NCBI GenBank assembly: GCA_947631845.1
Contig: CANRMY010000021.1
Coordinates: 1 to 38,749, forward strand
Length of the DNA: 38,749 nt
DNA from: an uncultured Oscillospiraceae bacterium
Lineage (GTDB): Bacteria; Bacillota; Clostridia; Oscillospirales; Oscillospiraceae
Direction of reading: 5' to 3'
Below the pieces are notes generated by a model. That model saw only the letters and a list, made by a program, of their open reading frames with translations. It was not told the origin of the DNA and did not search any database. A program made the translations under genes and the position numbers. Positions 2,219 to 32,214 of this stretch are shown piece after piece. How positions within the stretch are numbered: the first letter of the stretch is position 1; each line of letters starts with the position of its first letter.

Positions 2219-2294
2219 AAGGCGCGCTCCTTGCAATTATTTGTCGAAAATGATATGATACATATAAATTATGAAAGGTAAGGCGGCGAGGGTC

Positions 2295-3107
2295 ATGCCC
2301 AGACGGTCCCGGCAAATAAGCGAAAGCGGTATCCACCACATCATGCTCCGCGGCATCAACCGCTCCGCGATTTTCCACGACGAGGAGGACTGCGAGGTCT
2401 TTCTCCAGTACCTCTCCGAGAGCCTCACGCCCCCATCGGCGGGACTGAGGGACGGTTTTTTTGTCACACCGGAGCCGTGCGGAGGTGGGACTAAAGAACC
2501 GTCCCTCTGTAACGCCCGCCCCGCCCAGATCTACGCCTACTGCCTCATGGGCAACCACGTCCACCTTCTTATGAAGGCCGGGGACGAGCCGCTGTCCTCA
2601 CTTTTCAAGCGCTTCGGCGTTCGGTACGTCTACTGGTACAACCACAAGTACGACCGGGTGGGGCACCTCTTCCAGGACCGCTTCAAAAGCGCCCCGGTGG
2701 AGGACGATGCCTACCTCCTGGCGGTCTACCGCTACATTGCACAAAACCCGGTGAAGGCCGGACTGTGCGAAAAGCCCGGCGGCTACCGCTGGGCCAGCTT
2801 CGGAAACCCGAGGCCCGACCTTCGCTGTGCCCCGCTGCCCACGGATTACACGGAGGAGCAGCTGCGGGAATACGTCCTCTCCGACCAGCCGGACATCCAC
2901 CCCTTCCCGGAGCGCGTCACCGACCGAGAGGCAGAGGCGCTGCTGAAAAAGGTGACGGGGGTAAAGTACGCGGGGGAGCTGCAGGAGATGCCGCGGGAGG
3001 AGATCGTAAAAACCTGCGAACAGCTGGTAGCGGAGGGCGTGTCGCTGAGGCAGATTTCCCGGCTGACGGGGATATATATGAGCAATCTGTCGAGATGGTG
3101 CCAGTGA
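2295..3107 (+). CDS. REP-associated tyrosine (Y1/HUH) transposase, RAYT
   Basis: The 270-residue protein opens 'MPRRSRQISESGIHHIMLRG', the classic start of IS200-like/RAYT enzymes. It has the HUH pair in 'YCLMGNHVHLL' (His88, His90) and the 'YRYIAQNP' segment (Tyr145/147) that carries the nucleophile. These enzymes nick and rejoin single-stranded DNA at REP palindromes. The C-terminal 40 residues form an HTH ('SLRQISRLTGIYMSNLSRW'). The start is ATG 2295 with GAGGG upstream; an ATG at 2271 lacks a ribosome site. Residues 49-75 are not family sequence but a translated REP-like palindrome inserted in frame ahead of the HUH motif. More copies of that palindrome lie downstream, which fits RAYT biology. 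Confidence 0.88.
   Translation: MPRRSRQISESGIHHIMLRGINRSAIFHDEEDCEVFLQYLSESLTPPSAGLRDGFFVTPEPCGGGTKEPSLCNARPAQIYAYCLMGNHVHLLMKAGDEPLSSLFKRFGVRYVYWYNHKYDRVGHLFQDRFKSAPVEDDAYLLAVYRYIAQNPVKAGLCEKPGGYRWASFGNPRPDLRCAPLPTDYTEEQLREYVLSDQPDIHPFPERVTDREAEALLKKVTGVKYAGELQEMPREEIVKTCEQLVAEGVSLRQISRLTGIYMSNLSRWCQ
2439..2520 (+). repeat. REP-like palindrome inserted in frame inside the transposase gene
   Basis: The 82-bp segment has arms GAGGGACGGTT and AACCGTCCCTC around a spacer. It is a close copy of 3303-3387, 3 bp shorter, so the transposase frame is kept. It encodes residues 49-75 of the transposase. Confidence 0.85.
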
Positions 3108-3132
3108 CAAAACAGGTGCTCCTGCGGGGGGC

Positions 3133-3250
3133 CGGTGTGACACGGGGACGGTTCTTGCGTCTATCGTCCGCCGGTGTGACACGGGGACGGTTCTTTAGTT
3201 CCACCAGTGTGCGCACTGGTGTTACAAAATAACCGTCCCCTTTGTCCCAC
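3133..3250. repeat. Cluster of GGGGACGGTT / AACCGTCCCC palindromes
   Basis: Two direct copies of GGTGTGACACGGGGACGGTT (near 3133 and 3173) are followed by an inner dyad CACCAGTG...CACTGGTG and a closing AACCGTCCCC at 3231-3240. The whole stretch can fold into a large hairpin directly downstream of the transposase, as expected for RAYT-associated REP/BIME units. Confidence 0.8.
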
Positions 3251-3462: not shown

Positions 3463-5028
3463 TTAATCATAAACTGTTACCGTAATGGTATTGATCTGAG
3501 ACCTTCTTTTTATTGTAATTGTATATGTTCCAGCCTCGGTAGCAGTAAATACACCATTTTCCGTATTGAATGTAGAATCAACATTTGCTCCATCTTTGGT
3601 GACAGAAACAGTAACTCCTCCTGATGTAAATCTGGATGGGCTGCCATTCATAATTGCGTTGAACTGGCAAGTTGTAATACCGGCAGTCATGCACAGATAA
3701 ACATTGTGACTGGCTGTTTTACCTAAATCAATCTCGATTGGTCCAGTTGTATGTTCATGATTGCATCCGCCCGCTGAGCCGATTGATGTTTCCGGCTTTA
3801 CTTCTGGCGGATTAGTAGTGATATTCAAAGACCCGTCAGCATTTCTTCCGTAGACAACAACCGTAACAACAGAGCCTTCGTCAGGTAGACTTTCCATGAG
3901 GCCGTCACGCTCGGACTGGGTCATTGCCGCGAGCTGCGCGGCGGTTGCGATATATCCGCCAGCATCAGTCCAGAAACCATTAACGTCTCCGGTGTATTTG
4001 TGGCGAGTAACTTTTTTGCTCGGATCCTCAGGATGAGAGGGATCCGGTTCCTCCCAGGATTCCAAATTGCCGTTGTACTTCTCGTACATCCCTTCCATGA
4101 AGGTATAATACGCCTCACAATCGATGTCGGCTTGCTTCATAGCTTTTCCGTCTTTGGTAAAGACTGTGTTAGTAAGGTACGCTTGGGCTGCGGCTTGGAA
4201 CTGTTCGTTTTTACCGGAATTGTTAGTGAGAAAATCCGTGGGACTCGTGGGATGATTCATAAGATTCTCAACTGAACGAAGCCCGGCGAGATCGTCCTCG
4301 ATTCCTTCATAGCTGTAATTCTTCTCAAGGTAATTGGCAAAAGCGTAGTTTCTTGCAAGGTAAGAGGGCAATGCGGAGCCAAATGTATCGTTGTTGTATG
4401 TGGGATTAAAATTTGACCATTCATACTCACTGGTATGGCCCTGGGCCTTCATGGCTGCCTCCATGACGAACATGACCGCCTCAGCGTTCAAATCTCCGTC
4501 ACTTTCGATGCCCTCCATCTTCTTAGTCAATATTTCTGCCGTCTGCTTTACAGCGTCCCAGCAGTCGGAGGCGACATCTGCGTATCCGATCTTTACAGTT
4601 CCGCCGTTACCGTCAGACTCTCCTACATAGCTGAGCTTATCTTTAATTTTACTGAAGATAATGCTCTTTACGGACACCGCGTCAGGCGCATTATCCCACT
4701 TCCCATATTGAAGTGTCGAGTTGAGTCCGGCATCGTCAAGAGCCTTCTGCGTGGCGGTCGTAGTGCCGACAACGCCCTCGGAACTCAAAACAACCATACC
4801 CTGAGGCTTATCCCCGAACAGCGTCGGGTCTGAGTAGTCCGCCAGCTCCAGGGCGTGGATGATCTCGCCCACGGTCGCTTTGTCCTGCCCTTTTTTGGCG
4901 TACTCGATGTACGCGCCGTACCCCACCGCGCCGACGCCGGCGAGGATCGCCAGAATGGCGATCACGACGATCAGCTCCACCAGCGTGAAGCCGCTGTTAT
5001 ATTTACGATTTGAAGAATTTCGTTTCAT
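3463..5028 (-). CDS. Large type IV prepilin with C-terminal beta domain
   Basis: The 521-residue protein starts at ATG 5028 with an AGGAGG ribosome site. Residues 12-35 read 'NSGFTLVELIVVIAILAILA', a textbook type III signal: cleavage after Gly before Phe, Glu at +5 and a hydrophobic helix that packs in the pilus core. After 'GYGAYIEYAKKGQ' comes a long globular head, far larger than the usual 130-180 residues. The last 100 residues ('GGVTVSVTKDGANVDST' then 'EAGTYTITIKRRSQI') look like an Ig-like or beta-sandwich module, a plausible adhesion domain. It is the last gene of the pilus cluster, separated from it by about 470 bp, so it may have its own promoter. It could be an alternative major pilin or an adhesive minor pilin. 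Confidence 0.85.
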   Translation of the reverse strand: MKRNSSNRKYNSGFTLVELIVVIAILAILAGVGAVGYGAYIEYAKKGQDKATVGEIIHALELADYSDPTLFGDKPQGMVVLSSEGVVGTTTATQKALDDAGLNSTLQYGKWDNAPDAVSVKSIIFSKIKDKLSYVGESDGNGGTVKIGYADVASDCWDAVKQTAEILTKKMEGIESDGDLNAEAVMFVMEAAMKAQGHTSEYEWSNFNPTYNNDTFGSALPSYLARNYAFANYLEKNYSYEGIEDDLAGLRSVENLMNHPTSPTDFLTNNSGKNEQFQAAAQAYLTNTVFTKDGKAMKQADIDCEAYYTFMEGMYEKYNGNLESWEEPDPSHPEDPSKKVTRHKYTGDVNGFWTDAGGYIATAAQLAAMTQSERDGLMESLPDEGSVVTVVVYGRNADGSLNITTNPPEVKPETSIGSAGGCNHEHTTGPIEIDLGKTASHNVYLCMTAGITTCQFNAIMNGSPSRFTSGGVTVSVTKDGANVDSTFNTENGVFTATEAGTYTITIKRRSQINTITVTVYD

Positions 5029-5497: not shown

Positions 5498-5908
5498 CTA
5501 TTTCAGGGCCGGCTCGCGTTCATCGGCCCGGAGGGCGCGTTTTGCCTCCTCGTACTCCTTCATGCGGAAGAAAAAGGTGCTTTTTGCCATACGGCACAGC
5601 TTCGCGGCGGCGTCGGAGGTGATGGCCCCTTCCCGGTACAGCCTGACCACGTCCGGGAAGTTGGCGGGCAGGGGCGTGGGACGGCGGCCGAGGGGGACGC
5701 CGGCCTCCCTGGCGCGGCGGATCCCGTTGGCCTGGGCCTCCTTATGGCGCGCCTTGCGCCCCTCCTCCAAAGAGGAGGCGATCATCGGGAGCAGCCTGTC
5801 CACGACGCCCTCCGCCGTCTCCCCGGCCCGGAGCAGCGCCCCCGCCTCGGAGACCAGCGCCTCGTAGGCGCCGGGGGTCATGTAGGTTTGATAGTCCTGC
5901 TTTTCCAT
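5498..5908 (-). CDS. Small resolvase-type HTH protein without catalytic domain
   Basis: The 136-residue product starts at ATG 5908, with GGAGG about 8 nt upstream; a longer frame to 5959 overlaps the upstream gene and lacks a site. The second half, 'GIRRAREAGVPLGRRP' then 'GAITSDAAAKLCRMAKST', closely resembles the linker and C-terminal HTH of serine recombinases (resolvase/invertase). The N-terminal 60 residues are a short helical segment instead of the catalytic serine domain, so it should bind DNA but not recombine it. Its place between pilin genes suggests a regulator of pilin expression or a domesticated resolvase fragment. The function is inferred. Confidence 0.65.
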   Translation of the reverse strand: MEKQDYQTYMTPGAYEALVSEAGALLRAGETAEGVVDRLLPMIASSLEEGRKARHKEAQANGIRRAREAGVPLGRRPTPLPANFPDVVRLYREGAITSDAAAKLCRMAKSTFFFRMKEYEEAKRALRADEREPALK

Positions 5909-5931
5909 TTGCTTACCTCCCTCCCGGCGGC

Positions 5932-6993
5932 TCAATCCGCGCCGGACGTCGATTTCCACTTCAACCGGCCATAGCCCAGGATGCGGGGGTCGTCCGGGGC
6001 GTAATTGCGCACGGCGACCCGGCCGTCGGTGTTCCCCTCGATGGAGTAGACGCGGCCATCCCTTTGCATGAGGAACACGCCCACGTGGTCGGCGGCGCTG
6101 TCGTAGTCCGGATCCGGATCCCCGTCCCAGTCGAAGAAGATCAGATCCCCGGGGATGGGGGCGGCGCCGGGATCCAGCCAGGCGCCGTTTTCGCCGCTCC
6201 GCAGCCGCTTAACGCCGGCGTCCACGTCGGAGAAGGACAGCGTCCTGTCCAGCGAATCGCGAACCTGGGCGATCCCCCAGGAGACGAAGCAGGCGCACCA
6301 GGGGGTGTTTTTGCTCCAGCCGGGATGGACCTCGTCATAGCCGCCGATGTACCATTCGGAGAAATACTTCCCCTCATCGTCGCCGCTGAGGATCTTGCCG
6401 GTGCTGCCGATTTGGAGATCCAGATTGGCGATCAGGGCAAGACGGGCGATCCACTCGTCGTTGGAGATGCCGTAGGCCCGGGCGTTTGCTGCGCCGGCGG
6501 CGGAGGATCTGCCGTAGACCCGGCCCACAATGCCGGTATTGAAGTTGAGGGAGGTGGAGATTTGTTTCTCTGTTATATCCTGGGTTCGGCAGTAGACGGA
6601 GGTTGTATAGGTTTGGTTCTCCGTTGTGAGGGTTATGGTAAGAAGTTTTTTATCCTCAGAAAGTCCAGCTTTAAACTCCGTCACACCCTCCATAATGACC
6701 GAGCCGCCGGCTGAAAGCTTATGTTCGTCTTTGTCGTATGTAAGAATGTTTTTATCATTTGTACCTAAAATTTTGCCATTCTCTATCTTCGTTATGCTCC
6801 CCTCACTGGCCAGATCCTCCATCAGCGTCAGGACGATGCGGGAGGTTTCCTGCTCGCCCGCGGTGGCCTGGGCCGAGGCGCACAGGCGGAAGCATACCAG
6901 CAAAAATGACATAGCCGCCAACGTCACAATGGACGTGGCGGCTATTGTTGCCAGAAGCTCCACAAGCGTAAAGCCGCCGTTACTGTTTTTCAT
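5932..6993 (-). CDS. Minor prepilin fused to a CHAP peptidoglycan hydrolase domain
   Basis: The 353-residue protein starts at ATG 6993 after AAAGGGGAA. Residues 1-35 contain 'NGGFTLVELLATIAATS', a prepilin signal cleaved before Phe8 with Glu12 at +5; residues 40-140 resemble a PulJ/PilW-type minor pilin head. After a Ser/Ala-rich linker (about 160-175), residues 180-350 form a CHAP (Cys/His amidohydrolase/peptidase) domain: 'TPWCACFVSWG' with Cys233, 'PGDLIFFDW', 'ADHVGVFL' with His303, and 'SIEGNTDG' with Glu319/Asn321. CHAP enzymes cut peptidoglycan amide bonds. All key residues are present, so activity is likely. It lies within the minor-pilin run. Modular pilins are known in Gram-positive bacteria; I do not know of one carrying CHAP. 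Confidence 0.9.
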   Translation of the reverse strand: MKNSNGGFTLVELLATIAATSIVTLAAMSFLLVCFRLCASAQATAGEQETSRIVLTLMEDLASEGSITKIENGKILGTNDKNILTYDKDEHKLSAGGSVIMEGVTEFKAGLSEDKKLLTITLTTENQTYTTSVYCRTQDITEKQISTSLNFNTGIVGRVYGRSSAAGAANARAYGISNDEWIARLALIANLDLQIGSTGKILSGDDEGKYFSEWYIGGYDEVHPGWSKNTPWCACFVSWGIAQVRDSLDRTLSFSDVDAGVKRLRSGENGAWLDPGAAPIPGDLIFFDWDGDPDPDYDSAADHVGVFLMQRDGRVYSIEGNTDGRVAVRNYAPDDPRILGYGRLKWKSTSGAD

Positions 6994-7009: not shown

Positions 7010-7441
7010 CTATTCCTGCGTAGCGGTTATGTTGTAGGATTGGTATTTATTTATTTGTTTGACTGTGTTATTGCTATCAACTTCGACCTCCATCACGGCG
7101 GTCACTGTTGTGCTTTTGGCTTTTGCGATGACGGTGATTATCTTTTCAGAGTCTACGGTACCGACCTCAACGTTCACATTAACGTTGTGGTTGTCCGTCA
7201 GGCCCCTACTCTTTGGATATTCTTCTATCTTTGTTTCATCATATTTCTGATCCTTCACCCATGCCTGGAACCTCTCGATCTCCCCCTCGGCCGCGTACAG
7301 ATCCTGCATTCTCTCGACCGCCGCCTCCTGAACCTGGAGGTTTCGCACAGCCACGGAGCCGACCGCCAGGGCCATGGCCGACACTACCGTGATCACGATC
7401 ATCACATAGGCCAGCACATACCCGCCATTGTTCTTTTTCAT
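7010..7441 (-). CDS. PilX-like minor pilin
   Basis: The 143-residue product starts at ATG 7441. It begins 'MKKNNGGYVLAYVMIVITVV', a PilX_N-type N-terminus in which Tyr replaces Phe after the Gly-Gly and the conserved Glu at +5 is absent. That is usual for PilX/GspK-like tip or minor pilins. Residues 33-60 form an amphipathic helix ('RNLQVQEAAVERMQDLYAAE'), followed by a small beta-rich head. It is 3 bp from the next minor pilin gene upstream and 16 bp from the CHAP fusion, so the three minor pilins are probably translated from one message and assemble together at the pilus tip. Confidence 0.75.
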   Translation of the reverse strand: MKKNNGGYVLAYVMIVITVVSAMALAVGSVAVRNLQVQEAAVERMQDLYAAEGEIERFQAWVKDQKYDETKIEEYPKSRGLTDNHNVNVNVEVGTVDSEKIITVIAKAKSTTVTAVMEVEVDSNNTVKQINKYQSYNITATQE

Positions 7442-7443
7442 TG

Positions 7444-7839
7444 TTAGGTACCTCCCGGGGTGGTGGTGTCGGCAGGGGCGGGGCAGATGTAGGTTTCGAC
7501 AGACACCTCGCCGTCTGTGCTTTTAACGGTCACTTTGTAGCAATCAGGGTCGGTGGTGTCTTCTGGCCCCACCTCGATCGTCACATCCAAGGTTGTATCC
7601 GAAGGATAATATGATGAGTAGTCTATCTTCCCTTTTTCTATCCCTTCGGCCATCAACGTCTCCACCGCGCTGGAGACGGCCAGGCGATCCTTGATGATCT
7701 GCTCGCTCCGGCTGTTGATGCGGTTGGAGACGACCAGGCTGCCCCCCAGGGCGGCGGTGACGATACCGAGAACGGTGATCGCCACCAGCACCTCCACCAG
7801 GGTGACGCCTTCTTTTCCTTTGACGCGCTTTTTCTTCAT
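7444..7839 (-). CDS. PilV/PulI-like minor prepilin
   Basis: The 131-residue protein starts at ATG 7839, with GAGGTAA just upstream; an in-frame ATG at 7857 overlaps the end of pilO and has no site. 'KEGVTLVEVLVAITVLGIVT' is a prepilin signal, with cleavage after Gly and Glu at +5; Val replaces the usual Phe at +1. The head is small, with two cysteines near the end ('PDCYKVTV', 'TYICPAP') that could form a disulfide. It is sandwiched between pilO and the PilX-like gene in one operon. Confidence 0.8.
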   Translation of the reverse strand: MKKKRVKGKEGVTLVEVLVAITVLGIVTAALGGSLVVSNRINSRSEQIIKDRLAVSSAVETLMAEGIEKGKIDYSSYYPSDTTLDVTIEVGPEDTTDPDCYKVTVKSTDGEVSVETYICPAPADTTTPGGT

Positions 7840-7849
7840 TGCCGTTACC

Positions 7850-8479
7850 TCAGTCAAAAATGGTTCCGCCGCCGCCGCCCGGGCCGTCCACTTCGGGACT
7901 CTGGTACTCCTGCCCGTAATCCAGCAGATACCGCACCAGCGTCACGGTGCCCGTGGCGGTATCCGTTTCGGAGTCGTAGCTCAACGTGCAGTATTGGACG
8001 GAGGTGATATACGTGTCGTCGGTCGCCAGACGGTCGATCATGTCCTTGAAGCCCTGATAGTTCGTCTCGTAGTTGACCGTGAGGGTCAGAACCTTCAGAT
8101 CGGAGCCGTCGTTGAGGGTGATGACATCGCTCTCGGTTCCGAAGCTGAAGGTGATGTCGTTTCCGAACAGCTCCTCCAGATAGAGGATGTAGAGGATCTG
8201 ATCCTCCTCCTTCATCTCGCCGGGGAACGCCTTGTAAAGCGCCAGCCGGCTCTCGTCCAGGGCCTTCTCCTCGCCCTCCAGAACGTCCTGGACGCCGGCG
8301 TACTGCCTGTTGTCGTTGATCTGCGCCTGAACGTTGGATATCTGGGTGTCAAGGAGGCGGTCGTTTGTCTCATACTCCGCTTTTTCGGGCTTGTAAAGCA
8401 TGAAAATCACGTAAGCCGCCGCGCCGAACAGGATCAGCGCGAAAAGCGCTATCCAGTATTTTGCCAGGAACTTCTTCAT
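7850..8479 (-). CDS. pilO: PilO-like pilus alignment protein
   Basis: The 209-residue protein has one N-terminal membrane helix (residues 8-30, 'YWIALFALILFGAAAYVIF'), a coiled-coil stretch (about 35-75) and a small ferredoxin-like C-terminal domain. This is the PilO plan: it pairs with PilN at the membrane to connect the assembly platform with PilM. Sequence identity to PilO is low, so the assignment leans on position and topology. Its ATG overlaps the stop of the upstream PilM-PilN fusion (ATGA), a sign of translational coupling. A Gly-rich tail ('GPGGGGGTIFD') ends the protein. Confidence 0.75.
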   Translation of the reverse strand: MKKFLAKYWIALFALILFGAAAYVIFMLYKPEKAEYETNDRLLDTQISNVQAQINDNRQYAGVQDVLEGEEKALDESRLALYKAFPGEMKEEDQILYILYLEELFGNDITFSFGTESDVITLNDGSDLKVLTLTVNYETNYQGFKDMIDRLATDDTYITSVQYCTLSYDSETDTATGTVTLVRYLLDYGQEYQSPEVDGPGGGGGTIFD

Positions 8480-11400
8480 TGATAATCCTCCAGATCGAGC
8501 TCTTCCCGTATCTCATCGCGTGAAAGGCCCTTGCGCTCCATCTCGGCCTGGATCAGCGACTCCTTATAGGGAATGGATACCGTGAAGAAGATCCGGGTGT
8601 CTACCGCCTCGCCGCCGCCCGGCAGATCCCCGATGCCCGGAAGTCCGCCGCCGCCGGGAGTCTGACCGTTCAGATTGGCGTAGATCTGCTGGAGCAGATT
8701 GTACATGTCCGTCTGGCCCGGATTGTCGATGTTGATCTCCCGCCAGTCGATGGTGCTCCAGTCGAAATCGTCGAGATCCACGCCGAGATACTGCTCCAGC
8801 ATACCCACCAGCTCCTTCAGCTTCGGGTCGGCGGAGGGATCCACGAGCTCCCCGGTATCCGCGTACTTCAGCTGGCCGGTAGCCGGATCCACGACGAAGC
8901 CGGCGCTGGGGGTCTGGCCGTTCAGATTGGCATAGATCTGCTGGATCAGTTTGGCCGCGTCCGCCTGGCCCGGGTTGTCGATGTTGATATCCCGCCAGTC
9001 GATGGTGCTCCAGTCGAAACCGTCGAGATCCACGCCAAGATACTGCTCCAGCATACCCACCAGCCCCTCCAGCTTCGGATCGGCGGAGGGGTCCACGAGC
9101 TCCCCGGTATCCGCGTACTTCAGCTGGCCGGTGGCCGGATCCACGACGAAGCCGGTTCCGGCGCCGCCCGGAAGATCCCCGATGCCGGGAAGATCCCCGA
9201 TGCCGGGAAGATCGCCGATGCCGGGAAGGTCGCCCGACGACAAATCCTTGACCTGCTTTATAAGCTCCATAACGTTATCCATGGACGCGAGATTTGACCA
9301 GTCAAACTTGCGCCAGTCGATCTTTGTCCAGTCGATCGCGTCCGTGTTCAGGCCCGTGAACTGCCCGACCATGGGCAGATACTTCATGAACTGAGAGAGC
9401 CTGCTGTCCGTCAGCGGGTCAATGGCTTTTCCGTCAGCGTCCACCAGACGGCCCGTGTCGGGATCGATATAGAGGCCGGTGTTCGGCTCGTAGAGAAGGC
9501 CGGTCTTGGAATCGACAACGAGGCCGGTATCCGGATCGATGGTCACGTTGACCTTCAGAAGCTTCTCGGCCTGCCGGCGCAGCGTATCGACCACTTCGTC
9601 CACCGACATGGTTCTCCAGGTGATGGGGGTCCAGTCGATCTTGCTCCAGTCGAGCTCGGAGATATCCCGATCCTGCTCCTCAAGCTGCGTCCTCAGGGGC
9701 CATGTGTACTTGGCCATTCTCATGTCGGTGGCCGGATCCAGATCCTCGCCGGTCTGCGGGTCGTACAGCTTCTTTGTCTTTTTGTCGATATACAGGCCGG
9801 AGCTCAGATCAAAGAGCGTGCCGGTACTCGGGTAGATGTACTCGTTTGTGGCCTTATCCACGTACAGGCGGTTGACCTTGTCGAAAAGAAGGCTGTCGTC
9901 GTCCGGGTCGATCAGGAGCCCGGTGAGCGGGTCAATGTCGAGGCCGGTATCCGGGTCGGTCTCGGAGCCTTCGGAAACGGTCAGGGGCAGTCCTTTCTTC
10001 AAACAGATATAGTAGGTCAGGACGCCTCTGAGCGTCGGGTCGCTCTTGACAAGCTCCTCGCACCGATAGTAATACTCGTCGTCGGCCTGGTACTTATCGT
10101 CGATAAACTGGATGAGAAGGGTCTGCATATCCGTCAGGCTGGCGTCCGTGAGCGAGCTGTAGTCCCCCTTTGCGATGGCCTGAAGGTCACGGGCGGAGAA
10201 GATCGCCTTGAACCAGTCTTCGTTGAAATGATCCCAGCAGAACACCTCGAGGTCGTCACGCATCGTGGAATTGCCGGATTCGATATCCGCCCGAACCAGC
10301 TCGGCAAACAGATAGAGGGCGAAAGGGTTGCCCAGCATACGCTTGAACCCGTTCTTCCTCTGGGCGACGGAGGAAACTCTTATGACCTGATCCAGCGAAT
10401 ACGTGATTTCCGTGTTGCCGGCGTTTGTGCCCGCGCACATGGCTCTGGCGATCTCGATCCGCTTGCTGTCCGATCTCACGTCCCCGAGGATCTCCTTGAC
10501 GCTCTCCATCTCGCGGTTGGAGACCGTGTCGCCGCGTGCCAGCTTTTCGGATATTTCCGTCAGCGTGCTCTGGTCGTCCGACGACAGGCCGCTGCCTTCA
10601 AAGACGTCCGCCGAGTTGTTGGAGCTGCCCTCGGTGGGGGGCGCCTCGGGGGAACCGGTGGCCTGGGCCAGGGAGGAGAGTACGGAAAAGGCCGACACGC
10701 CGGGGCCGATCGTCAGGTCGGAGATATACGTCGGCTCCTCCCCGTATTGCAGGGAGCGCAGGGTCAGGATGACGTAGGCCGCCGTCTGTTTGTCCTCGCA
10801 GGCGATCTGCAGGCCCAGCCCCTCCGGGGCGATGCCGATCTCGGTGACGCTGACGCCGTCGGGAAGGATCTGCTCCAGCTCGCTCAGCATCAGGGACAGG
10901 TTGTCATTGTAGGTACGCAGGGCGCCGACGCTCTCGGATCCCTCCTCGTCGGAGCCCAGCAGGGTGCGCCAGTCGGCGGCGTAGTTGAAGTAGTAAGCCT
11001 CATAATCCTCCCAGTTCTGCTTGAAGCCGCTGACGTCCGCCAGCGAATCCTGCAGATTGCCCAGCGCGCTTTCCTTCCTGTTCAGGGTGGTGCTCCAGTC
11101 CAGCGAATCCCCGAGGAACTGGAGGACTGTCAGAGCCAGAAGCCCGCCGCCCGCCAGAAGGAGGCCGTACTGCCAGAACTTCTGGAGCAGATTGGGCCGC
11201 CCGGGGAAGTTCAGGGCCGGGTCGCCGAAGTCCAGCCGCGTTACGGCCGCGCCGGCGCACAGGCACCATTCGTCCGCGGACGCTCCCGTCTGGGCCGTCG
11301 TGGGGAGGTTCAAAGCCTCCTCCACCCGCTCCACATACTCCGGATCCCGGGCGCCGGCGCCGCAGACAGCCACGAGAATGTCCCCGCCGCCCGAATGCTC

Positions 11401-12234
11401 GGTCTCATAGAGCTCCAGCACCATCCGGGCGTCCTCCAGCTCATCCATATAGGAGCTGCCGCGGTTCAGCAGCCGCTGGTGCGTCACCTGCCTGTCGCGG
11501 ACAAAGGTCATCAGCAGAAAGTCCTCCTCCGGGAGGAGATAGAGAACCGTCTCCTTTGGCCGCTCCTCCCCGGCGGGCGCGCCGGTAACGGGGGCCTTCC
11601 GGCCCTTGGAGGGCGTCTTTTTGTTTCCCTTCTTTTTCCCGGAGGGAACCGGGGCGGCGTATCCGGCCCTCACAAGGCCGGTGAAGCTGTTTCCGCAGTA
11701 GTCCACCGCCAGCACCTTCAGGCCGCAGGAGTTGGCCAACTTGTAGTATTCCTCCACCAGGGCGTTGGGTACCGCCCAGAGCTGTACGGACCGGGAGGTG
11801 CTTCCGTCCTCGTCGTCAAGGATGCCGACGGGGGTCCAGACCAGGCGGCTTCCGCGGGTGTCCACGGGAAAATACATGTCCCGGTTGGTGTCCAGGGTCT
11901 TTTCCATCAGCCGGTCCTCCGCCGAACCGGAGGACCGCCTGCTCTTGACGGTTCGGACGGCCACCGTCTCCGACAGCACCTGGGAGGAGCACAGGGTAAA
12001 CACCACGTTCCTGACGTGCCTGATCCCCGGCTCCGTCAGGGCGGATTTGAGCGCTTCCCGCAGGGCGTCCGGATCCAGAATGGCGCCGTCCTCCACCGCG
12101 CCCTCGGGCAGGGGACGAACCACGCGGGTTTTCAGCTTGGGCACGGAGCCCAGCTTCATACTGGCGACGCGCAGCTCCTGGCTGCAAAGCTGGACGACCA
12201 GGGCGCGTCCGGATAATTTCTTTTTGATTTTCAT
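8476..12234 (-). CDS. pilM: PilM-PilN fusion with a large repeat-rich C-terminal extension
   Basis: The 1252-residue protein starts at ATG 12234 with CGAGGT upstream. Residues 1-345 match a PilM-type actin-like ATPase (cytoplasmic) and include a Lys-rich insert near 199-212. One membrane helix follows (354-376), then a PilN-like coiled coil and ferredoxin-like domain (380-515). The rest, about 740 residues, should be outside the membrane: a helical region (550-750), tandem 'DPDTGLxxD' modules (757-840 and 898-945), repeated 'LDWSKIDW' motifs, a (DLPGIG) spacer (1002-1022), two 84-residue near-identical repeats (1028-1195), and a C-terminal helix. PilM and PilN are normally separate and far shorter. 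Two pilus subunits in one chain plus a long exterior arm suggest adaptation to a thick wall. Gene neighbours pilO and pilD confirm the context. Confidence 0.85.
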   Translation of the reverse strand: MKIKKKLSGRALVVQLCSQELRVASMKLGSVPKLKTRVVRPLPEGAVEDGAILDPDALREALKSALTEPGIRHVRNVVFTLCSSQVLSETVAVRTVKSRRSSGSAEDRLMEKTLDTNRDMYFPVDTRGSRLVWTPVGILDDEDGSTSRSVQLWAVPNALVEEYYKLANSCGLKVLAVDYCGNSFTGLVRAGYAAPVPSGKKKGNKKTPSKGRKAPVTGAPAGEERPKETVLYLLPEEDFLLMTFVRDRQVTHQRLLNRGSSYMDELEDARMVLELYETEHSGGGDILVAVCGAGARDPEYVERVEEALNLPTTAQTGASADEWCLCAGAAVTRLDFGDPALNFPGRPNLLQKFWQYGLLLAGGGLLALTVLQFLGDSLDWSTTLNRKESALGNLQDSLADVSGFKQNWEDYEAYYFNYAADWRTLLGSDEEGSESVGALRTYNDNLSLMLSELEQILPDGVSVTEIGIAPEGLGLQIACEDKQTAAYVILTLRSLQYGEEPTYISDLTIGPGVSAFSVLSSLAQATGSPEAPPTEGSSNNSADVFEGSGLSSDDQSTLTEISEKLARGDTVSNREMESVKEILGDVRSDSKRIEIARAMCAGTNAGNTEITYSLDQVIRVSSVAQRKNGFKRMLGNPFALYLFAELVRADIESGNSTMRDDLEVFCWDHFNEDWFKAIFSARDLQAIAKGDYSSLTDASLTDMQTLLIQFIDDKYQADDEYYYRCEELVKSDPTLRGVLTYYICLKKGLPLTVSEGSETDPDTGLDIDPLTGLLIDPDDDSLLFDKVNRLYVDKATNEYIYPSTGTLFDLSSGLYIDKKTKKLYDPQTGEDLDPATDMRMAKYTWPLRTQLEEQDRDISELDWSKIDWTPITWRTMSVDEVVDTLRRQAEKLLKVNVTIDPDTGLVVDSKTGLLYEPNTGLYIDPDTGRLVDADGKAIDPLTDSRLSQFMKYLPMVGQFTGLNTDAIDWTKIDWRKFDWSNLASMDNVMELIKQVKDLSSGDLPGIGDLPGIGDLPGIGDLPGGAGTGFVVDPATGQLKYADTGELVDPSADPKLEGLVGMLEQYLGVDLDGFDWSTIDWRDINIDNPGQADAAKLIQQIYANLNGQTPSAGFVVDPATGQLKYADTGELVDPSADPKLKELVGMLEQYLGVDLDDFDWSTIDWREINIDNPGQTDMYNLLQQIYANLNGQTPGGGGLPGIGDLPGGGEAVDTRIFFTVSIPYKESLIQAEMERKGLSRDEIREELDLEDYQ
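8656..9153 (-). repeat. Two 252-bp tandem coding repeats in the PilM-PilN extension
   Basis: Units 8902-9153 and about 8650-8901 encode near-identical 84-residue blocks beginning 'GFVVDPATGQLKYADTGELV'. Just to the right, 18-bp repeats encoding DLPGIG occupy about 9170-9235. The high DNA identity points to recent expansion, and copy number may vary between strains. Confidence 0.9.
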
Positions 12235-12346
12235 AGCTAAAACCTCGTTACACGCGGATACGGCACAGCCGGCCGGCATGGCCCGGCCGGTTCTGCGGCG
12301 TCCGCGGGTATATCTCTCTTTGCGGGTTATTTTCAGCGGCGCGCGC

Positions 12347-13099
12347 TTAGACCCCGAGAAGGCTCAGGTAGGCCGCGATGGCGCGGTCGCCCAGCAGGGC
12401 GGAGAGCCAGATCCCCGCCGCCAGATACGGCCCGAAGGCCAGCCGGCGGCCGGCGCCCCGGCACATCCGCGCCAGGTGTACCGCCGTGCCGATGATACTC
12501 CCCAGCGCCAGGGCCAGCAGGATCCTCCGCCACCCCAGCAGCAGTCCCGCCGCCGCCAGCAGCTTCACGTCCCCCAGGCCGATCATGGCGCCGCCGGAGG
12601 CCAGATGGAGCAGCAGCAGGGGCAGGCTCACGCACACGGAGCCTATGAGGTAGTCCGGCCAGTGCCAGACGTCCGCCGCCAGCTGGACGGCGCCCAGCAG
12701 CAGCATCGCCAGATTCAGGCCGTTGGGGATCTCCAGGGTGCGCCCGTCGACGACCGCCGCCACCAGGAGCAGGGAGGACATGGCGCAGTAAAGCGCGGCC
12801 CGCAGCGGGTCGCCCCGGAAAAGCAGGCCGCACGCAAGCCACGCCGCCGCGTTTGTCAGCTCCACCGCCGGGTACTGGAGGGACAGCCTGGCCCCGCAGG
12901 CCCGGCACCGGCCCCGCTGGACAAGGAAGCTGACCACGGGGATCAGCTCGTACCAGGAAAGCACGTGTCCGCAGCTCATGCAGTGGGAGCGGGTCCTGAC
13001 GAAGTCCTCCCCCAGGGGGAGACGGTAGATGAGCACGTTGCAAAAGCTCCCCACGCAAAGTCCCATGAGGGCCAGGAAGCACAGCGCAAGTTGGCTCAT
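12347..13099 (-). CDS. pilD: Prepilin peptidase / N-methyltransferase
   Basis: The 250-residue polytopic membrane enzyme starts at ATG 13099 with a perfect AAGGAGGTGA site. The N-terminal domain has both CxxC pairs ('HCMSCGH' and 'RCRACGA') that bind zinc in full-length PilD/GspO enzymes. The two catalytic aspartates are in 'VVDGRTLEIPN' and 'GLGDVKLLAA' (the GxGD motif). It cleaves the leader of every prepilin in this cluster and methylates the new N-terminus. Its location inside the operon, between the pilin gene and pilM, gives a self-contained pilus system. Confidence 0.95.
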   Translation of the reverse strand: MSQLALCFLALMGLCVGSFCNVLIYRLPLGEDFVRTRSHCMSCGHVLSWYELIPVVSFLVQRGRCRACGARLSLQYPAVELTNAAAWLACGLLFRGDPLRAALYCAMSSLLLVAAVVDGRTLEIPNGLNLAMLLLGAVQLAADVWHWPDYLIGSVCVSLPLLLLHLASGGAMIGLGDVKLLAAAGLLLGWRRILLALALGSIIGTAVHLARMCRGAGRRLAFGPYLAAGIWLSALLGDRAIAAYLSLLGV

Positions 13100-13185: not shown

Positions 13186-13710
13186 TTATTCCCCTCCACT
13201 TTTCGCTTCTTCCCCTCCACTTTTCGCTTCTTCCCCTCCACTTTTCGCTTCTTCCCCTCCACTTTTCGCTTCCAACTTCCACTCGCCGGCAGACCATGTC
13301 GCCGATTTATTAGTTTTGGAATTAAGATCCATGCTAGGCATTAAGGTTTTGAAAGTCTCCGCAGCCGTATGTCCATCGCTACCCTCAGCGGGAGTGGATT
13401 CTCCAAAAATTACAAATACAAATCCATCCTTCACCTTATCAGTTTTGACATTAATTACGGGCTTAGCGCCAAAAGTAACCTCAATTTCTGTTACACTTCC
13501 AAGTGCGGGTTCGGACGCACATGAAGCCTGGACTGCGGTAAGGACACCGGATAAGTTGGTCAGATCCTTTGAACTGTTGGCCTTGTCAATATACCCCGTA
13601 TACGCGGGATACGCGACGGCGGCCAATATGGCGAGGATGGCGATGACCACAATGAGCTCCACCAGTGTGAAGCCCTCACGGGCGGCCATCCTCTTGTTGA
13701 AATTCTTCAT
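13186..13710 (-). CDS. pilA: Major-type prepilin with a C-terminal EAKSGGE repeat tail
   Basis: The 174-residue protein starts at ATG 13710 with AAAGGA upstream. 'REGFTLVELIVVIAILAILA' is a canonical prepilin signal and core helix. 'AYPAYTGYIDKANSSKDLTN' and a short head with few cysteines fit a major pilin of normal size. The tail is unusual: four perfect copies of EAKSGGE, charged and flexible, at the C-terminus. The gene stands between pilC and pilD with 132 bp ahead of it, room for its own promoter, which major pilins often have. The larger pilin at 3463-5028 is the alternative candidate for the main subunit. Confidence 0.88.
   Translation of the reverse strand: MKNFNKRMAAREGFTLVELIVVIAILAILAAVAYPAYTGYIDKANSSKDLTNLSGVLTAVQASCASEPALGSVTEIEVTFGAKPVINVKTDKVKDGFVFVIFGESTPAEGSDGHTAAETFKTLMPSMDLNSKTNKSATWSAGEWKLEAKSGGEEAKSGGEEAKSGGEEAKSGGE
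13189..13272 (-). repeat. Four perfect 21-bp tandem repeats at the pilin 3' end
   Basis: The 21-bp unit starts TTCCCCTCCACTTTTCGCTT on the plus strand and is repeated four times without a mismatch, directly before the stop codon. Each unit adds EAKSGGE in frame, so gain or loss of units would change tail length without a frameshift. Confidence 0.97.
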
Positions 13711-13842: not shown

Positions 13843-15060
13843 TCACAGGTATTGGTCGTAGCCCTGGGTCATGGCCAGCATGGGCAGGAAGATGGACAGG
13901 ACGATGACCACCACCATCCCCGCCATCAGCAGGATGATGGCCGGCTCCAGAAGGGCCAGGAGGCGGTCAGTGGCGTCCTTGACCTCGTCGTCGTAGTAGT
14001 CGGCGATCTTGGCCAGGGATCCCTGGAGGTCGCCGGCCTCCTCGCCCACCATCACAAGGTTTGACACCATGGGCGGGAACAGCCCCGTGTCTCTGAGACT
14101 CACGGCCAGAGACCAGCCCTGGGAGACAAGGCTAGAGACGGTGCGCAGGGCGTCCTCGAACCAGATGTTGCTCATGTTGGCGGCGGTCAGGTCGATGCTC
14201 TCCAGCAGGGTAAGGCCGGAGCCCAGGAGCAGGGACAGGGTTCTGGTGGCCGTGGCGCAGGCGGAGCGGACGGTGAGCCGCCCGAACACCGGCGCCTTGC
14301 GGGCGATGTAGCCGAAGAAGTGGCGCCCCTTGACGGTGCGGCCAAACAGCACGGCGGAGACGACCAGTCCCGCGATCACGCCCACCAGCACCATCCACCA
14401 TTTGACGAACCAATTGCTGACGGCCATGACGCCCCTGGTCAGGGCGGGCAGCTCCACGTCCAGCTGGTCGAAGGTCTCCATGAAGGAGGGGATGATGGTG
14501 GTCATCATCACGATGAGCACGATGACCATCACCACCAGCAGGATGCAGGGGTAGATCATGGCCTTGGTCACGGCGCTCTTGGTGCGCCGGGCCTTTTCAA
14601 AGTAGACCTCCATCTGCCGGAAGGAGTCCTCCAGGTTTCCGGAGTTCTCGCCGGCCTCCACCATGTTGGCCATCATGGACGGGAATACCTTATGCTGCTT
14701 GCGCATGGCCCCGGCCAGGGACTCGCCCTTTTCCACGTCCGTCTGGATCTCGCGGATGGCGGCGGCCAGCTGCTTGTTCTCGGTCTGCTGACCCAGCAGG
14801 GACAGCACGATGGACAGCGACTCCCCCGCCCGGAGGATGGAGATGAACTGCCGGCAGAAGATGGCCATGTCCTTGGAGGAGGGCCGCCCCATGAAGGGCA
14901 CGTTGAGCTCGCGCTCGAAGAGGCTGGGGGACCGGATGTCCACGATGGTGTAGCCCACGCCCCGCAGGGAGCTTTTCGCCATATCCAGCGTGGCGGCCTC
15001 GATGGAGCCGTTGACGCGCTTGCCGGTGGTGTTGATAGCGGTATATGTAAAAGCGGGCAA
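13843..15060 (-). CDS. pilC: Type IV pilus platform protein PilC
   Basis: The 405-residue membrane protein uses a TTG start at 15060, with GGAGG 8-9 nt upstream and no better ATG. It has two GspF-type cytoplasmic domains, in residues about 60-170 ('FCRQFISILRAGESLSIVL') and 270-370 ('LSLLLGSGLTLLESIDL', 'VGEEAGDLQGSLAKIADYYD'). Membrane helices lie near 167-193, 217-240 and 376-400. Length matches the family. PilC is the inner-membrane platform that the PilB and PilT motors act on. It follows pilT by 12 bp, so pilB-pilT-pilC is one transcriptional unit. Confidence 0.95.
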   Translation of the reverse strand: MPAFTYTAINTTGKRVNGSIEAATLDMAKSSLRGVGYTIVDIRSPSLFERELNVPFMGRPSSKDMAIFCRQFISILRAGESLSIVLSLLGQQTENKQLAAAIREIQTDVEKGESLAGAMRKQHKVFPSMMANMVEAGENSGNLEDSFRQMEVYFEKARRTKSAVTKAMIYPCILLVVMVIVLIVMMTTIIPSFMETFDQLDVELPALTRGVMAVSNWFVKWWMVLVGVIAGLVVSAVLFGRTVKGRHFFGYIARKAPVFGRLTVRSACATATRTLSLLLGSGLTLLESIDLTAANMSNIWFEDALRTVSSLVSQGWSLAVSLRDTGLFPPMVSNLVMVGEEAGDLQGSLAKIADYYDDEVKDATDRLLALLEPAIILLMAGMVVVIVLSIFLPMLAMTQGYDQYL

Positions 15061-15072
15061 CGCTTATCCCTC

Positions 15073-16134
15073 CTATAATCTGACGCGCTCCACGGCGGCC
15101 ACCGTGTCCGGGTCGTTGGCCGCGGCGGCGGCGTCCTTGGCCGAAACCTCCCCGGCGCGAACCAGGGCCGCCAAGGCGTCGTCCAGCGGGGCCATCCCCT
15201 GCTTCTTCCCCGTCTGCATGGCGTTGGGGATCTGGAAGGACTTGTTTTGCCGGATCAGGCTCTTTACGGCGGCGCTTCCCACCATGATCTCAAAGACGGC
15301 CCGCCGTCCGCCGCCAATCCTGGGCAGCAGCGTCTGGCCGATGACGCACTCCAGCACGTCCGCCAGCTGGATGCGTATCTGCTCCTGCTGTTCGGCGGGG
15401 AACACGTCGATGATGCGGTCCACCGTGTTGGCCGCGCCCTTGGTGTGCAGGGTCCCGAACACCAGGTGCCCGGTCTCAGCGGCGGTGATGGCGGTGGAGA
15501 TGGTCTCCAAATCGCGCATCTCGCCCACCAGGATCACGTCGGGATCCTGCCGCAGGGCGGCGCGCAGTCCGGCGGCGAAGCTGCCGGTATCCCGGCCCAC
15601 CTCCCGCTGGTGGATGACGCAGCTCATGGGCTCGTATACATACTCGATGGGGGCCTCCAGCGTGATAATATGGCGGCGGGAGCTCCGGTTGATGTGATCC
15701 AGAAGGGCCGCCAGGGTGGAGCTCTTACCGGAGCCCGTAGGCCCGGTGACCAGCACCAGCCCCCGGGGCTTTTCCGCCTGTTCGATGAGGATCCGCGGCA
15801 AAAGCAGATCCTTCGCCGTGGGTACGGTCAGGGGCAGCAGGCGAAGGGCCATGGCCGTCTCGCCCTGCTGATAAAAGATGTTGCAGCGCATACGCATACT
15901 GCCAAGAACCGTGACGGCGAAATCGGTCTCCCCGTCCCGCTCCAGCTCCCGCATGCCCTCCTCCCCCGCCAGGTCGCGGGAGGCGGCTTCCATCTCCTCC
16001 CGCGTGAAGGGGGGCATGTCGTCCTTGACCAGGGCGCCGTCCACCCGCAGTACCGGGGGAAAGCCCACGGTCAGGTGGATATCGGAAGCGCGGCGCTCCT
16101 GGGCCCGGGAGATCACCTGGTCAAGCTTTGTCAT
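15073..16134 (-). CDS. pilT: Pilus retraction ATPase PilT
   Basis: The 353-residue hexameric secretion ATPase starts at ATG 16134, overlapping the pilB stop (ATGA). It has the PilT start 'ASDIHLTVGFPPVLRVDG', Walker A 'VTGPTGSGKSSTLAAL', Walker B 'DPDVILVGEMRDLET', the His-box 'GHLVFGTLHT' and the C-terminal 'AVKSLIRQNKSFQIPNAM', equivalent to the AIRNLIRE segment needed for retraction. It depolymerises the pilus to power twitching or DNA uptake. Its presence supports a true retractile type IV pilus over a secretion system. Confidence 0.95.
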   Translation of the reverse strand: MTKLDQVISRAQERRASDIHLTVGFPPVLRVDGALVKDDMPPFTREEMEAASRDLAGEEGMRELERDGETDFAVTVLGSMRMRCNIFYQQGETAMALRLLPLTVPTAKDLLLPRILIEQAEKPRGLVLVTGPTGSGKSSTLAALLDHINRSSRRHIITLEAPIEYVYEPMSCVIHQREVGRDTGSFAAGLRAALRQDPDVILVGEMRDLETISTAITAAETGHLVFGTLHTKGAANTVDRIIDVFPAEQQEQIRIQLADVLECVIGQTLLPRIGGGRRAVFEIMVGSAAVKSLIRQNKSFQIPNAMQTGKKQGMAPLDDALAALVRAGEVSAKDAAAAANDPDTVAAVERVRL

Positions 16135-17861
16135 GACCTGTTCTCCCCGTTTCCGGAGGGCTCCGGGAAGTCGCCCTCCATGTTGATGCGGTGCAGCTCT
16201 CCTATGTGTGTGATCCCCTCCCGAACCAGGCGGCTGGCGCTCTCCCGCAGGGTGTGCATCCCCTCGCGGACGGCCTGCTCGCGAAGCTCGTCGGTGGAGG
16301 CCCGCCGGGCGATGAGCGCCCGCAGCGCCGGGGTGATCTCCATGATCTCATAGACGCCGATCCGGCCCAGAAAGCCCGTGCTGCCGCATCGGGCACAGCC
16401 CACCGGCTCCCACAGCACGGCGTTTTCCCGCTCCTCCTCGGGGACGTTCAGATAGTCGGCCTCGTAGGGGAGCATGGGGCGGGATCGCTTGCAATTGGGA
16501 CACAGCCGCCGCACCAGGCGCTGGGCCACGATGCCCACGGTGGCGTCGGCGATGAGAAAGCTCTCAACGCCCATGTCCAGCAGACGCGTGACGCTGCTGG
16601 CGGTGTCGTTGGTGTGCAGGGTGCTGACCACCAGGTGTCCCGTGATGGACGCCTGGACGGCGATGGCCGCCGTCTCGCCGTCGCGGATCTCGCCGATCAT
16701 GATGATGTCCGGGTCCTGGCGCAGGATGGAGCGCAGGACGTTGGCGAAGGTCATGTCGGCCTTGGGATTTACCTGGATCTGGTTGACGCCGTCGATATGG
16801 GCCTCCACCGGATCCTCGACGGTGACGATGTTCACCGACTCGCTGTTCAGGCCGCTCAGAGCCGTGTAGAGGGTGGTGGATTTGCCCGAGCCGGTGGGCC
16901 CGGTGACCAGGAAGATGCCGTTGGGCCTGGCGAGGATCTTGTCGAACTTCTCCAGATCCTCGCCTACAAGCCCGAGGCTCTCCTTGTCGCGGCTCAAGGC
17001 CCGCTTCTGGGCAAGACGCATGACGCATTTCTCACCGTAGGTGGTGGGAAGGGTGGACACGCGCAGATCGTACTCCAGGTGATCCACCGTGAGGGAGAAG
17101 CTTCCGTCCTGGGGCTTGTGCTTCTCCGAAATGCGCATACCGCTGATGATCTTGATGCGCGTGATGATGGCGGGCAGAAGGTTCATCTCGTAGGAGGCCC
17201 GCCGGTACAGAACGCCGTCCACCCGGAACCGCACCCGCACCTGATCCACGCCCGGCTCGATGTGGATATCCGAGGCGCGCATACGCACCGCCTGCTCCAC
17301 CAGGGAGTTGACCAGCACCACCACCGGCGAGGCGTTCACGTCCGCCTGCTGAAGCTCCTCCTCCAGCGTGTGGGGCGTCTCGCCCACCTGCGCCACGTTG
17401 AACTGCTCCGCCGCCGCCTGCATCTCCTGACTGCCGAAGTAGCGGTCGATGGTTCGCATGATATCCACGGAGGTGGCAAGATAGGGGCGGACGCGCATTC
17501 TGGTGGTGTGGGCCACCACGTCGCGGCCGCGCATGTTCATGGGGTCGCAGATGGCCACCCGCAGAGCGCCGGGATCGTCGGGGTCTATGTCAAAGGGCAG
17601 AACCTGGTTGGTTCTGAGAAGGTCGGGGGGAACCATCCGCCGAACCTCCGGCGGGATGGCGGTCTCGTAGAGCCGGATCCGGGGGATGCGGGACAGCTGA
17701 GACAGGGCCTCCACGATCCTGTCCTCCGGGACAAGGGCCTTTTCCACCAGCAGATCCCGGACAGACCGCCGGGCGCCGCGGTGCTCCTCCCAGAGCTCTT
17801 TTGCCTGCTCCGGGGTAATCAGCCCAGCCTCCACAAGGTATCTAATCAGTTTTTCGTTCAA
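16131..17861 (-). CDS. pilB: Pilus extension ATPase PilB
   Basis: The 576-residue GspE-family ATPase is given a TTG start at 17861, because GGAGG at 17869-17873 lies exactly 8 nt before it; a longer TTG at 17876 would place that site inside the gene. An N-terminal MshEN-like domain (about 1-145) is followed by the motor: 'VTGPTGSGKSTTLYTAL' (Walker A near residue 320), 'DPDIIMIGEIRDGETA' (Walker B), 'GHLVVSTLHTNDT', and the zinc tetracysteine (CPNC ... CARC). It drives pilin polymerisation together with PilC. It is the first gene of the pilus operon as laid out here. Confidence 0.95.
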   Translation of the reverse strand: MNEKLIRYLVEAGLITPEQAKELWEEHRGARRSVRDLLVEKALVPEDRIVEALSQLSRIPRIRLYETAIPPEVRRMVPPDLLRTNQVLPFDIDPDDPGALRVAICDPMNMRGRDVVAHTTRMRVRPYLATSVDIMRTIDRYFGSQEMQAAAEQFNVAQVGETPHTLEEELQQADVNASPVVVLVNSLVEQAVRMRASDIHIEPGVDQVRVRFRVDGVLYRRASYEMNLLPAIITRIKIISGMRISEKHKPQDGSFSLTVDHLEYDLRVSTLPTTYGEKCVMRLAQKRALSRDKESLGLVGEDLEKFDKILARPNGIFLVTGPTGSGKSTTLYTALSGLNSESVNIVTVEDPVEAHIDGVNQIQVNPKADMTFANVLRSILRQDPDIIMIGEIRDGETAAIAVQASITGHLVVSTLHTNDTASSVTRLLDMGVESFLIADATVGIVAQRLVRRLCPNCKRSRPMLPYEADYLNVPEEERENAVLWEPVGCARCGSTGFLGRIGVYEIMEITPALRALIARRASTDELREQAVREGMHTLRESASRLVREGITHIGELHRINMEGDFPEPSGNGENRS

Positions 17862-17955
17862 TGGTAGTTCCTCCAAATGCCGCTTCGCGCGCGACGCGCA
17901 GGGTGCGGAGCGCTAAAGCCGGAATCGAATATGCTCCGGTACCGGATTCAACGCT

Positions 17956-21667: not shown

Positions 21668-21684
21668 ATTTGACTGCTTAAAAT
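21668..21684 (+). repeat. Putative attachment repeat, left copy
   Basis: ATTTGACTGCTTAAAAT touches the integrase stop codon and matches 22847-22863 at 16 of 17 positions in the same orientation. A pair of direct repeats hugging a lone integrase is what att sites of a small or decayed element would look like. Confidence 0.55.
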
Positions 21685-30146: not shown

Positions 30147-30220
30147 CCCGTGGGCCGGCGGCCCACATACATATTCGCCTCGCCGTAAGGCGGTATTTTA
30201 TGAGGAAGGAGGAAAAAATC

Positions 30221-31958: not shown

Positions 31959-32159
31959 CGACGCCTGGGGGAAAGTGGGCCTTTTGCCGACCGGCAGAAA
32001 AGGCGCTTGCCTCGCCCCTCTCTCACACTCTCCCCCCGTTACCGGCTGAAAGGGCAGGACAAACCAGCTGAAAAGAAAGACTTTTTCTCAGCGGGTAACA
32101 CTCCGGGAGGTGAACGGAATGAAGTAACCACGGAAAACCAAACAGGAGCGGAGTTTGAC

Positions 32160-32181
32160 CCCACGGGAGCGTGGTTTTTTT
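32160..32181 (+). terminator. Terminator after parAB
   Basis: CCACG-GGAG-CGTGG is followed by TTTTTTT, in the 256-bp gap between parB and the surface protein gene. No gene is supported in the rest of that gap. Genes after it need a promoter or read-through. Confidence 0.85.
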
Positions 32182-32214
32182 ATGCTCAAAAATAAAGGAA
32201 CGGAGGAAAAAACA

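Follow-up and report, generated by a model that had tools for sequence, protein, structure and literature searches.

An uncultured bacterium of the Oscillospiraceae, a gut-dwelling family, encodes a minor type IV pilin that continues in the same reading frame into a CHAP-type hydrolase domain, and we think it somewhat probable that this pilin, at the tip of its pilus, opens the peptidoglycan for the filament that carries it. The gene, named here pilW-CHAP, lies in a type IV pilus (T4P) operon on contig CANRMY010000021.1 (GenBank assembly GCA_947631845.1; genome of 2.59 Mb in 119 contigs), and the entire contig, 38,749 nucleotides, was analyzed (the window). pilW-CHAP is one intact gene and a real, conserved pilin-CHAP fusion. 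Its open reading frame (ORF) runs on the minus strand from an ATG at 6993 to a stop codon at 5932-5934 with no internal stop, and a ribosome-binding-like AAAGGGG, noted by eye, stands 9 nt 5' of the ATG, just past the stop of pilX. The prepilin leader named in the original prediction was correctly read: MKNSNGG/FTLVE, cut at the slash, has Gly7, Phe8 at position +1 and Glu12, the Glu5 of the mature protein. With the Gly cut, Glu5 and the hydrophobic stretch this is a class III signal peptide, and residues 3-28 match Pfam N_methyl at 23.4 bits (cut-off 21.2). Residues 228-321 match Pfam CHAP (PF05257) at 30.5 bits (gathering score 26), with Cys233 and His303 as first proposed; the residues originally given as "Glu/Asn" are Glu319 and Asn321. 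The C-terminal domain is thus one that is not specific to pili, T4P assembly genes lie alongside, and the protein has the makeup of a modular pilin.

The fusion was found in at least 18 distinct loci: the window; G020, G286, G238, G249, G159, G088, G270, G149, G388 and G440; and contig loci L032-L037 and L041. Relatives with this architecture emerged when the proteins of 300 family genomes were searched, and a scan of genome contigs, in which the best 80 of 470 loci were kept, gave nine loci with the full architecture (L032-L039 and L041; L038 and L039 duplicate the proteins of G249 and G270 and were not counted twice) and one, L040, that starts inside the gene. The 18 aligned members all match both CHAP and N_methyl (E up to 0.1). 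Two findings had been named as fatal to the idea, a frameshift or assembly error joining two genes and the absence of the architecture from relatives. Neither applies: L032, on another assembly, and 16 further distinct loci carry the same gene in one frame, and because at least 18 distinct loci share the fusion it is not an assembly join. The G-numbered genomes with the fusion span three families of one order; L032 and L034-L037 are Oscillospiraceae, L033 is a Dysosmobacter of the same family, and L041 is assigned to the Bacillota.

The putative active site is retained throughout. Cys233, His303, Glu319 and Asn321 are invariant in 19/19 pilin-linked CHAP domains and form the quartet of LysGH15, an equivalence drawn from the sequence alignment and the E-x-N spacing. 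According to the part of the LysGH15 study covered here, mutation of its Cys, His or Asn abolishes activity and mutation of its Glu reduces it (PMC4022735). The ratio of nonsynonymous to synonymous substitution rates (dN/dS) in CHAP is 0.40, 0.30 and 0.18 between the window and L032, G020 and G388, respectively, as compared with 0.93, 0.45 and 0.22 in the pilin part, and 1.55 in the linker against L032. From these residues, the CHAP head is a predicted peptidoglycan hydrolase.

Comparison of the window with L032 also reveals a mosaic. Amino acid identity is 172/176 in CHAP, 111/136 in the pilin part and 31/41 in the linker. At the nucleotide level, pilW-CHAP is identical over residues 1-60 (1.00), falls to 0.77-0.82 over residues 61-160 and returns to 0.97-1.00 from residue 161, with sharp borders on the divergent head; pilC, pilD, pilMN and pilO stand at 0.986-0.997, and pilA, pilV and pilX at 0.65, 0.87 and 0.87. 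In this pair, therefore, the pilin heads vary and CHAP is spared. Such differences between loci about 99% identical suggest head exchange or diversification. In a second close pair, L135 and L136, the mosaic is absent: pilW stands at 0.94 throughout, above pilM and pilO.

The predicted structure of the protein is a GspJ-like minor pilin joined to an NlpC/P60-CHAP (papain-like) fold, as compared by Foldseek; a fold unrelated to CHAP, which would have spoken against the original prediction, is not what the model gives. Like the J-type minor pilins (GspJ, XcpW, EpsJ) and ComGF, pilW-CHAP has the predicted J-type pilin fold, a place in a minor-pilin gene set and a weak match to the ComGF profile. 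To our knowledge, those pilins have no enzyme domain, whereas pilW-CHAP does. Sequence searches of solved structures gave 0 matches with the protein at E 1 and 0 matches with a 24-row profile at E 0.01. We class pilW-CHAP among the modular pilins, with its head as one of a new kind, and regard it as neither a ComGF nor a LytF.

The operon points to a tip-type minor pilin. From 17876 down to 5932 the order is pilB, pilT, pilC, pilA, pilD, a pilM-pilN fusion, pilO, pilV, pilX and pilW-CHAP, where the names PilM, PilN, PilO, PilV, PilX and PilW were assigned from gene position and size, family matches being weak or absent. In the window, as in 16/16 relatives with upstream sequence (G249, also listed as L006/L038, and L040 have none), pilV-pilX immediately precedes pilW-CHAP; pilD does not adjoin pilMN in L132, L134, L138 and L202. 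PilX lacks Glu5 in 20/20 loci with a PilX match (2/22 loci gave no match), as expected at a pilus tip. Operon position and predicted fold both bear out the identification as a minor pilin and put pilW-CHAP probably at the tip.

As far as sampled, the fusion is a patchy trait of one order. With the pilin part as query, 24/300 genomes of the family match at 1e-6, and nine of the 13 strong matches (E < 1e-23) carry CHAP (G000, the genome of the window, G286, G159, G088, G020, G249, G270, G238 and G149). In the order sample 35/394 genomes match at 1e-6; of seven strong matches (E < 1e-34), four have CHAP (G000, G388, G020, G440) and three do not (G042, G508, G131). At a strict cut-off of 1e-38 or 1e-36, under which divergent members (G149, for example) could escape, full-length matches were restricted to G000 and G020 in the class sample (391 genomes) and to G000 in the phylum sample (199 genomes). 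In a tree of 111 CHAP domains, built on 146 columns with an unsettled bootstrap and long-branch warnings, a single branch (support 99/91; present in 98% of 200 bootstrap trees) separates the 19 pilin-linked domains from the 92 others. The pilin-linked CHAPs form one clade and resemble a separate lineage more than the product of repeated chance fusions. We also considered a phage or plasmid origin of the fusion and rejected it. By tblastn, 4/50,697 phage and 5/72,556 plasmid records matched, with coverage of at most 48% of the query and always from residue 177 on, and a pattern search found a candidate pilin leader in 0/80 CHAP ORFs of the 80 viral-contig loci listed.

A second feature of the operon accompanies CHAP. 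The PilM-PilN protein extends 459-878 residues beyond its membrane helix in 16 CHAP loci versus 153-180 in four CHAP-less loci, a count that omits L041, which ends at the contig end (in L141/L201, from G508, PilM gave no match). In the alignment, seen in part, the extra sequence comes after the membrane helix and shortly before the C-terminal end; by eye, it sits between strands of the PilN domain and holds a conserved, helical stretch of ~125 residues. This stretch occurs in 17/17 CHAP loci with pilMN (the window, L132-L138, L200, L202, L032-L037 and L041) and in 0/4 CHAP-less loci. The profile was iterated and trained on its own hits, so that its E-values are not independent; the length count is independent of the profile. 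In whole genomes, the insert domain was found in 4/4 with CHAP, 0/5 with a CHAP-less pilW and 0/3 congeners lacking a strong pilW match; the four positive genomes had fed the profile, and the informative part is the absence from the other eight. Co-occurrence gave a Fisher P of 1.7e-4, or 0.0012 with near-copies collapsed, both ignoring kinship. Three CHAP-locus PilM-N proteins were scanned with Pfam: the ~125-residue stretch matched no family above cut-off, and OCRE repeats, further on in the window protein, were the sole such match within the insert.

In a quick tree of the pil loci, in which L141 is a long, gappy row, G148, with neither CHAP nor insert, is sister to G286, with both (Shimodaira-Hasegawa-like approximate likelihood ratio test, SH-aLRT, 100), and the other three CHAP-less loci with pilMN form a second group (SH-aLRT 81). 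CHAP and insert thus seem to have been gained or lost together, in at least two lineages. The G286 locus and its sister in G148 offer a ready natural comparison.

We propose that pilW-CHAP serves a retractable type IV pilus of a monoderm Oscillospiraceae bacterium as a modular minor pilin. Its GspJ-like part would join PilX and PilV in a complex that primes the filament at its leading end, and the CHAP head would therefore reach the inner wall face before any other part. At that point it would cut peptide bonds (stem peptides) of the peptidoglycan and open a pore where the pilus exits, and then leave with the filament or come back upon retraction by PilT. A single filament-tied enzyme per pilus, pulled back by PilT, would limit damage. 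In this proposal we infer catalysis, the tip position and the cell's own wall as the target. The PilN insert, whose topology should place it on the outer side of the membrane near the machine's base, may hold the waiting subunit by its CHAP head, or gate that head; alternatively, it could well anchor the machine to the wall. Whether enzyme and insert make up a two-part wall-passage module, in which a cognate PilN-insert domain docks or restrains the enzyme on the tip pilin and the two are gained and lost together, is a more tentative matter, to which we give slightly less than an even chance. If true, it would provide a dedicated and spatially confined route of the pilus through its own cell wall.

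Several observations weigh against these proposals. Confidence in the model of pilW-CHAP is moderate (predicted local distance difference test, pLDDT, 79.8; predicted template modeling score, pTM, 0.56), Foldseek returned no match for it at E 0.001, and the ComGF equivalog model (NF041002) scores 22.2 bits, below its cut-off of 80. Few independent events underlie the PilN-insert link. Co-occurrence with pilB and pilT, part of the original prediction, holds for the window operon; L135 and L136 have no pilT between pilB and pilC, which leaves retraction conjectural in those two loci. Four of the 13 strong pilin matches in the family sample lack CHAP (G148, G042, G192, G131), which with G508 makes five relatives with the pilin and no CHAP, and the genome itself has a second T4P locus (G000:C17, L208), with pilB-, pilT-, pilC- and pilD-like genes and pilin genes, that gave no CHAP match. 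The CHAP profile found nothing in seven CHAP-less or second-T4P stretches (L139, L140, L141, L198, L199, L201 and L208), other hydrolase families not being sought. A tip hydrolase is hence not needed for every such pilus. Likewise LytF, the stand-alone CHAP hydrolase discussed below, is not essential for extrusion, as its report states in the part covered here (PMC13192262).

The same evidence bears on other functions. The hydrolase might act from the membrane pool of prepilins and trim the wall for placement of PilM-PilN-PilO, its display at the tip being incidental. Pilins do wait in the membrane prior to assembly, according to the modular-pilin survey as far as covered (PMC8179133), and the co-occurrence of PilN insert and CHAP points to a link at the base. 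Yet a plain membrane-anchored hydrolase would suffice for this task, whereas CHAP has been kept on a J-like pilin in one clade, and the ~40-residue linker would restrict its reach from the membrane; we consider this route unlikely. Only slightly less likely is that the tip enzyme cuts the walls of neighboring cells touched by the extended pilus, leading to killing or to release of nutrients or DNA. A tip enzyme would face outward, pneumococcal CbpD, also a CHAP enzyme, is described in the covered part of PMC13192262 as lysing related cells in competence, and pilin heads that differ between two near-identical loci are what one expects of an exposed structure. However, CHAP stays constant while the heads vary in that closest pair, a single tethered enzyme per pilus would be a weak weapon, and a CHAP-linked insert at the base of the machine better fits action near the cell's own membrane. 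No immunity gene was recognized in the operon, where no systematic search was made. The genome does contain comEC, which could speak for such a target, but 10/14 control genomes match too, and a competence link was rejected.

Less probable again is a CHAP head that serves as a binder, anchoring the pilus to peptidoglycan or other ligands. The known heads of modular pilins are mostly ligand-binding in the covered part of PMC8179133, and RipD, an NlpC/P60 relative in the list of similar folds, is titled non-catalytic; against a binder stand the retention of all four catalytic residues in 19/19 domains and the CHAP dN/dS values of 0.18-0.40 in three pairs. An artefact or unexpressed gene, whether by misassembly, frameshift or a functionless fusion, is very improbable: the assembly is fragmented, but the architecture shared by the distinct loci, the invariant quartet and the single clade speak against it.

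Opening of the wall by the pilus's own tip has its closest experimental parallel, in our reading, in LytF of S. sanguinis, which promotes Com-pilus extrusion. In the part of this 2026 report covered here, loss of LytF reduces extracellular ComGC and transformation, a catalytic mutant transforms like the deletion, and LytF added from outside does not complement (PMC13192262). In both systems, wall crossing by a type IV pilus would be linked to a CHAP hydrolase. LytF, however, is a separate secreted protein with Bsp repeats that serves a Com pilus, whereas in pilW-CHAP pilin and CHAP share one frame in a pil operon, so that the association with the pilus would be covalent. Dedicated wall hydrolases such as AtlA of the gonococcal type IV secretion system (cited in the covered part of PMC13192262) similarly clear the wall for a machine, but as separate proteins rather than as part of a filament subunit.

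Modular pilins themselves are widespread: the survey as covered here counts over 1,200 proteins in 264 architectures, S74 and M26 peptidases included (PMC8179133). Like PilB (vWA) and PilC (lectin) of S. sanguinis, pilW-CHAP has a class III signal peptide, a short pilin module and a C-terminal domain attached by a linker (PMC8179133 and PMC9934059, in the parts covered), and like them it is encoded beside a minor pilin without Glu5. It differs in that the described heads are ligand-binding, of no clear function, or S74/M26 peptidases, whereas its own is of CHAP type. The suspicion that a CHAP-headed pilin is undescribed held up in the literature searched, which yielded none, most subscription papers lying outside that coverage; the main text of the survey, apart from its Dataset S1 with the 264 architectures, contains no "CHAP", "IPR007921" or "amidase". 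In a 2019 review of monoderm T4P, peptidoglycan crossing is listed as a question and PilO is speculated upon, as far as the covered part goes (PMC6916266). A hydrolase covalently part of a tip-type pilin would be a concrete, testable answer for one lineage and, if true, would widen the roles of modular pilins beyond ligand binding to include enzymology of the wall.

Table 1. Genes and domains of the pilW-CHAP operon in window coordinates
Feature	Coordinates	Strand	Basis
pilW-CHAP, modular minor pilin with CHAP domain, 353 aa	5932..6993	-	ORF, Pfam
Predicted CHAP-type hydrolase domain, aa 178-353 (Cys233, His303, Glu319, Asn321)	5935..6462	-	Pfam, model, alignment
Linker of pilW-CHAP, aa 137-177 (137-153 of low model confidence)	6463..6585	-	Model
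Pilin part of pilW-CHAP, aa 1-136: leader aa 1-7, long helix 10-63, beta head	6586..6993	-	Sequence, Pfam, model
pilX, minor pilin lacking Glu5; predicted structure closest to PilA of S. sanguinis	7010..7441	-	Alignment, model
pilV, minor pilin with Glu5	7444..7857	-	N_methyl 27.1 bits, cut-off 21.2
pilO-like gene	7850..8479	-	Position and relatives; no family match
pilM-pilN fusion, large insert in outer PilN part	8476..12279	-	PilM and PilN models below cut-off
Conserved domain of PilN insert, only in CHAP loci	9988..10365	-	Profile search
pilD, prepilin peptidase	12347..13099	-	Pfam over cut-off
pilA-like pilin	13186..13710	-	Pfam
pilC, platform protein (T2SSF)	13843..15060	-	Pfam over cut-off
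pilT, retraction ATPase	15073..16134	-	TIGR01420 (NCBIfam), 449 bits, cut-off 319
pilB, assembly ATPase	16131..17876	-	Best TIGR02538, 551 bits, cut-off 676; T2SSE and MshEN over cut-off

A small gene directly 3' of pilW-CHAP (5498-5959), for which Pfam gave no family over cut-off, is retained at that place in L032 and L137. Further downstream, 3463-5028 encodes another large pilin of 521 residues (N_methyl 34.8 bits; C-terminal part without a family), a relative of which also follows pilW-CHAP in L032 and L033. On the other side of the operon, a protein with an SLH domain (S-layer type) adjoins pilB; in the second T4P locus L208, an ORF resembling D-alanyl-D-alanine carboxypeptidase was noted by eye beside pilB.

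Elsewhere in the window, 34148-34987 encodes a copper amine oxidase N-terminal domain; the sequence after it, for which no family was found, looks similar to an NlpC/P60-CHAP active site on inspection by eye. At 32155-34082, a sortase gene comes after a gene for a secreted protein with a C-terminal membrane anchor, as judged by eye. A phage-type integrase (21684-22799) and ParA and ParB genes (30200-31958) may mark a mobile element integrated beside the pil locus. Finally, an IS200-like (Y1) transposase lies at 2271-3232, with RGRFF-type repeats in and around it, seen by eye, as in elements associated with repetitive extragenic palindromes (REP).
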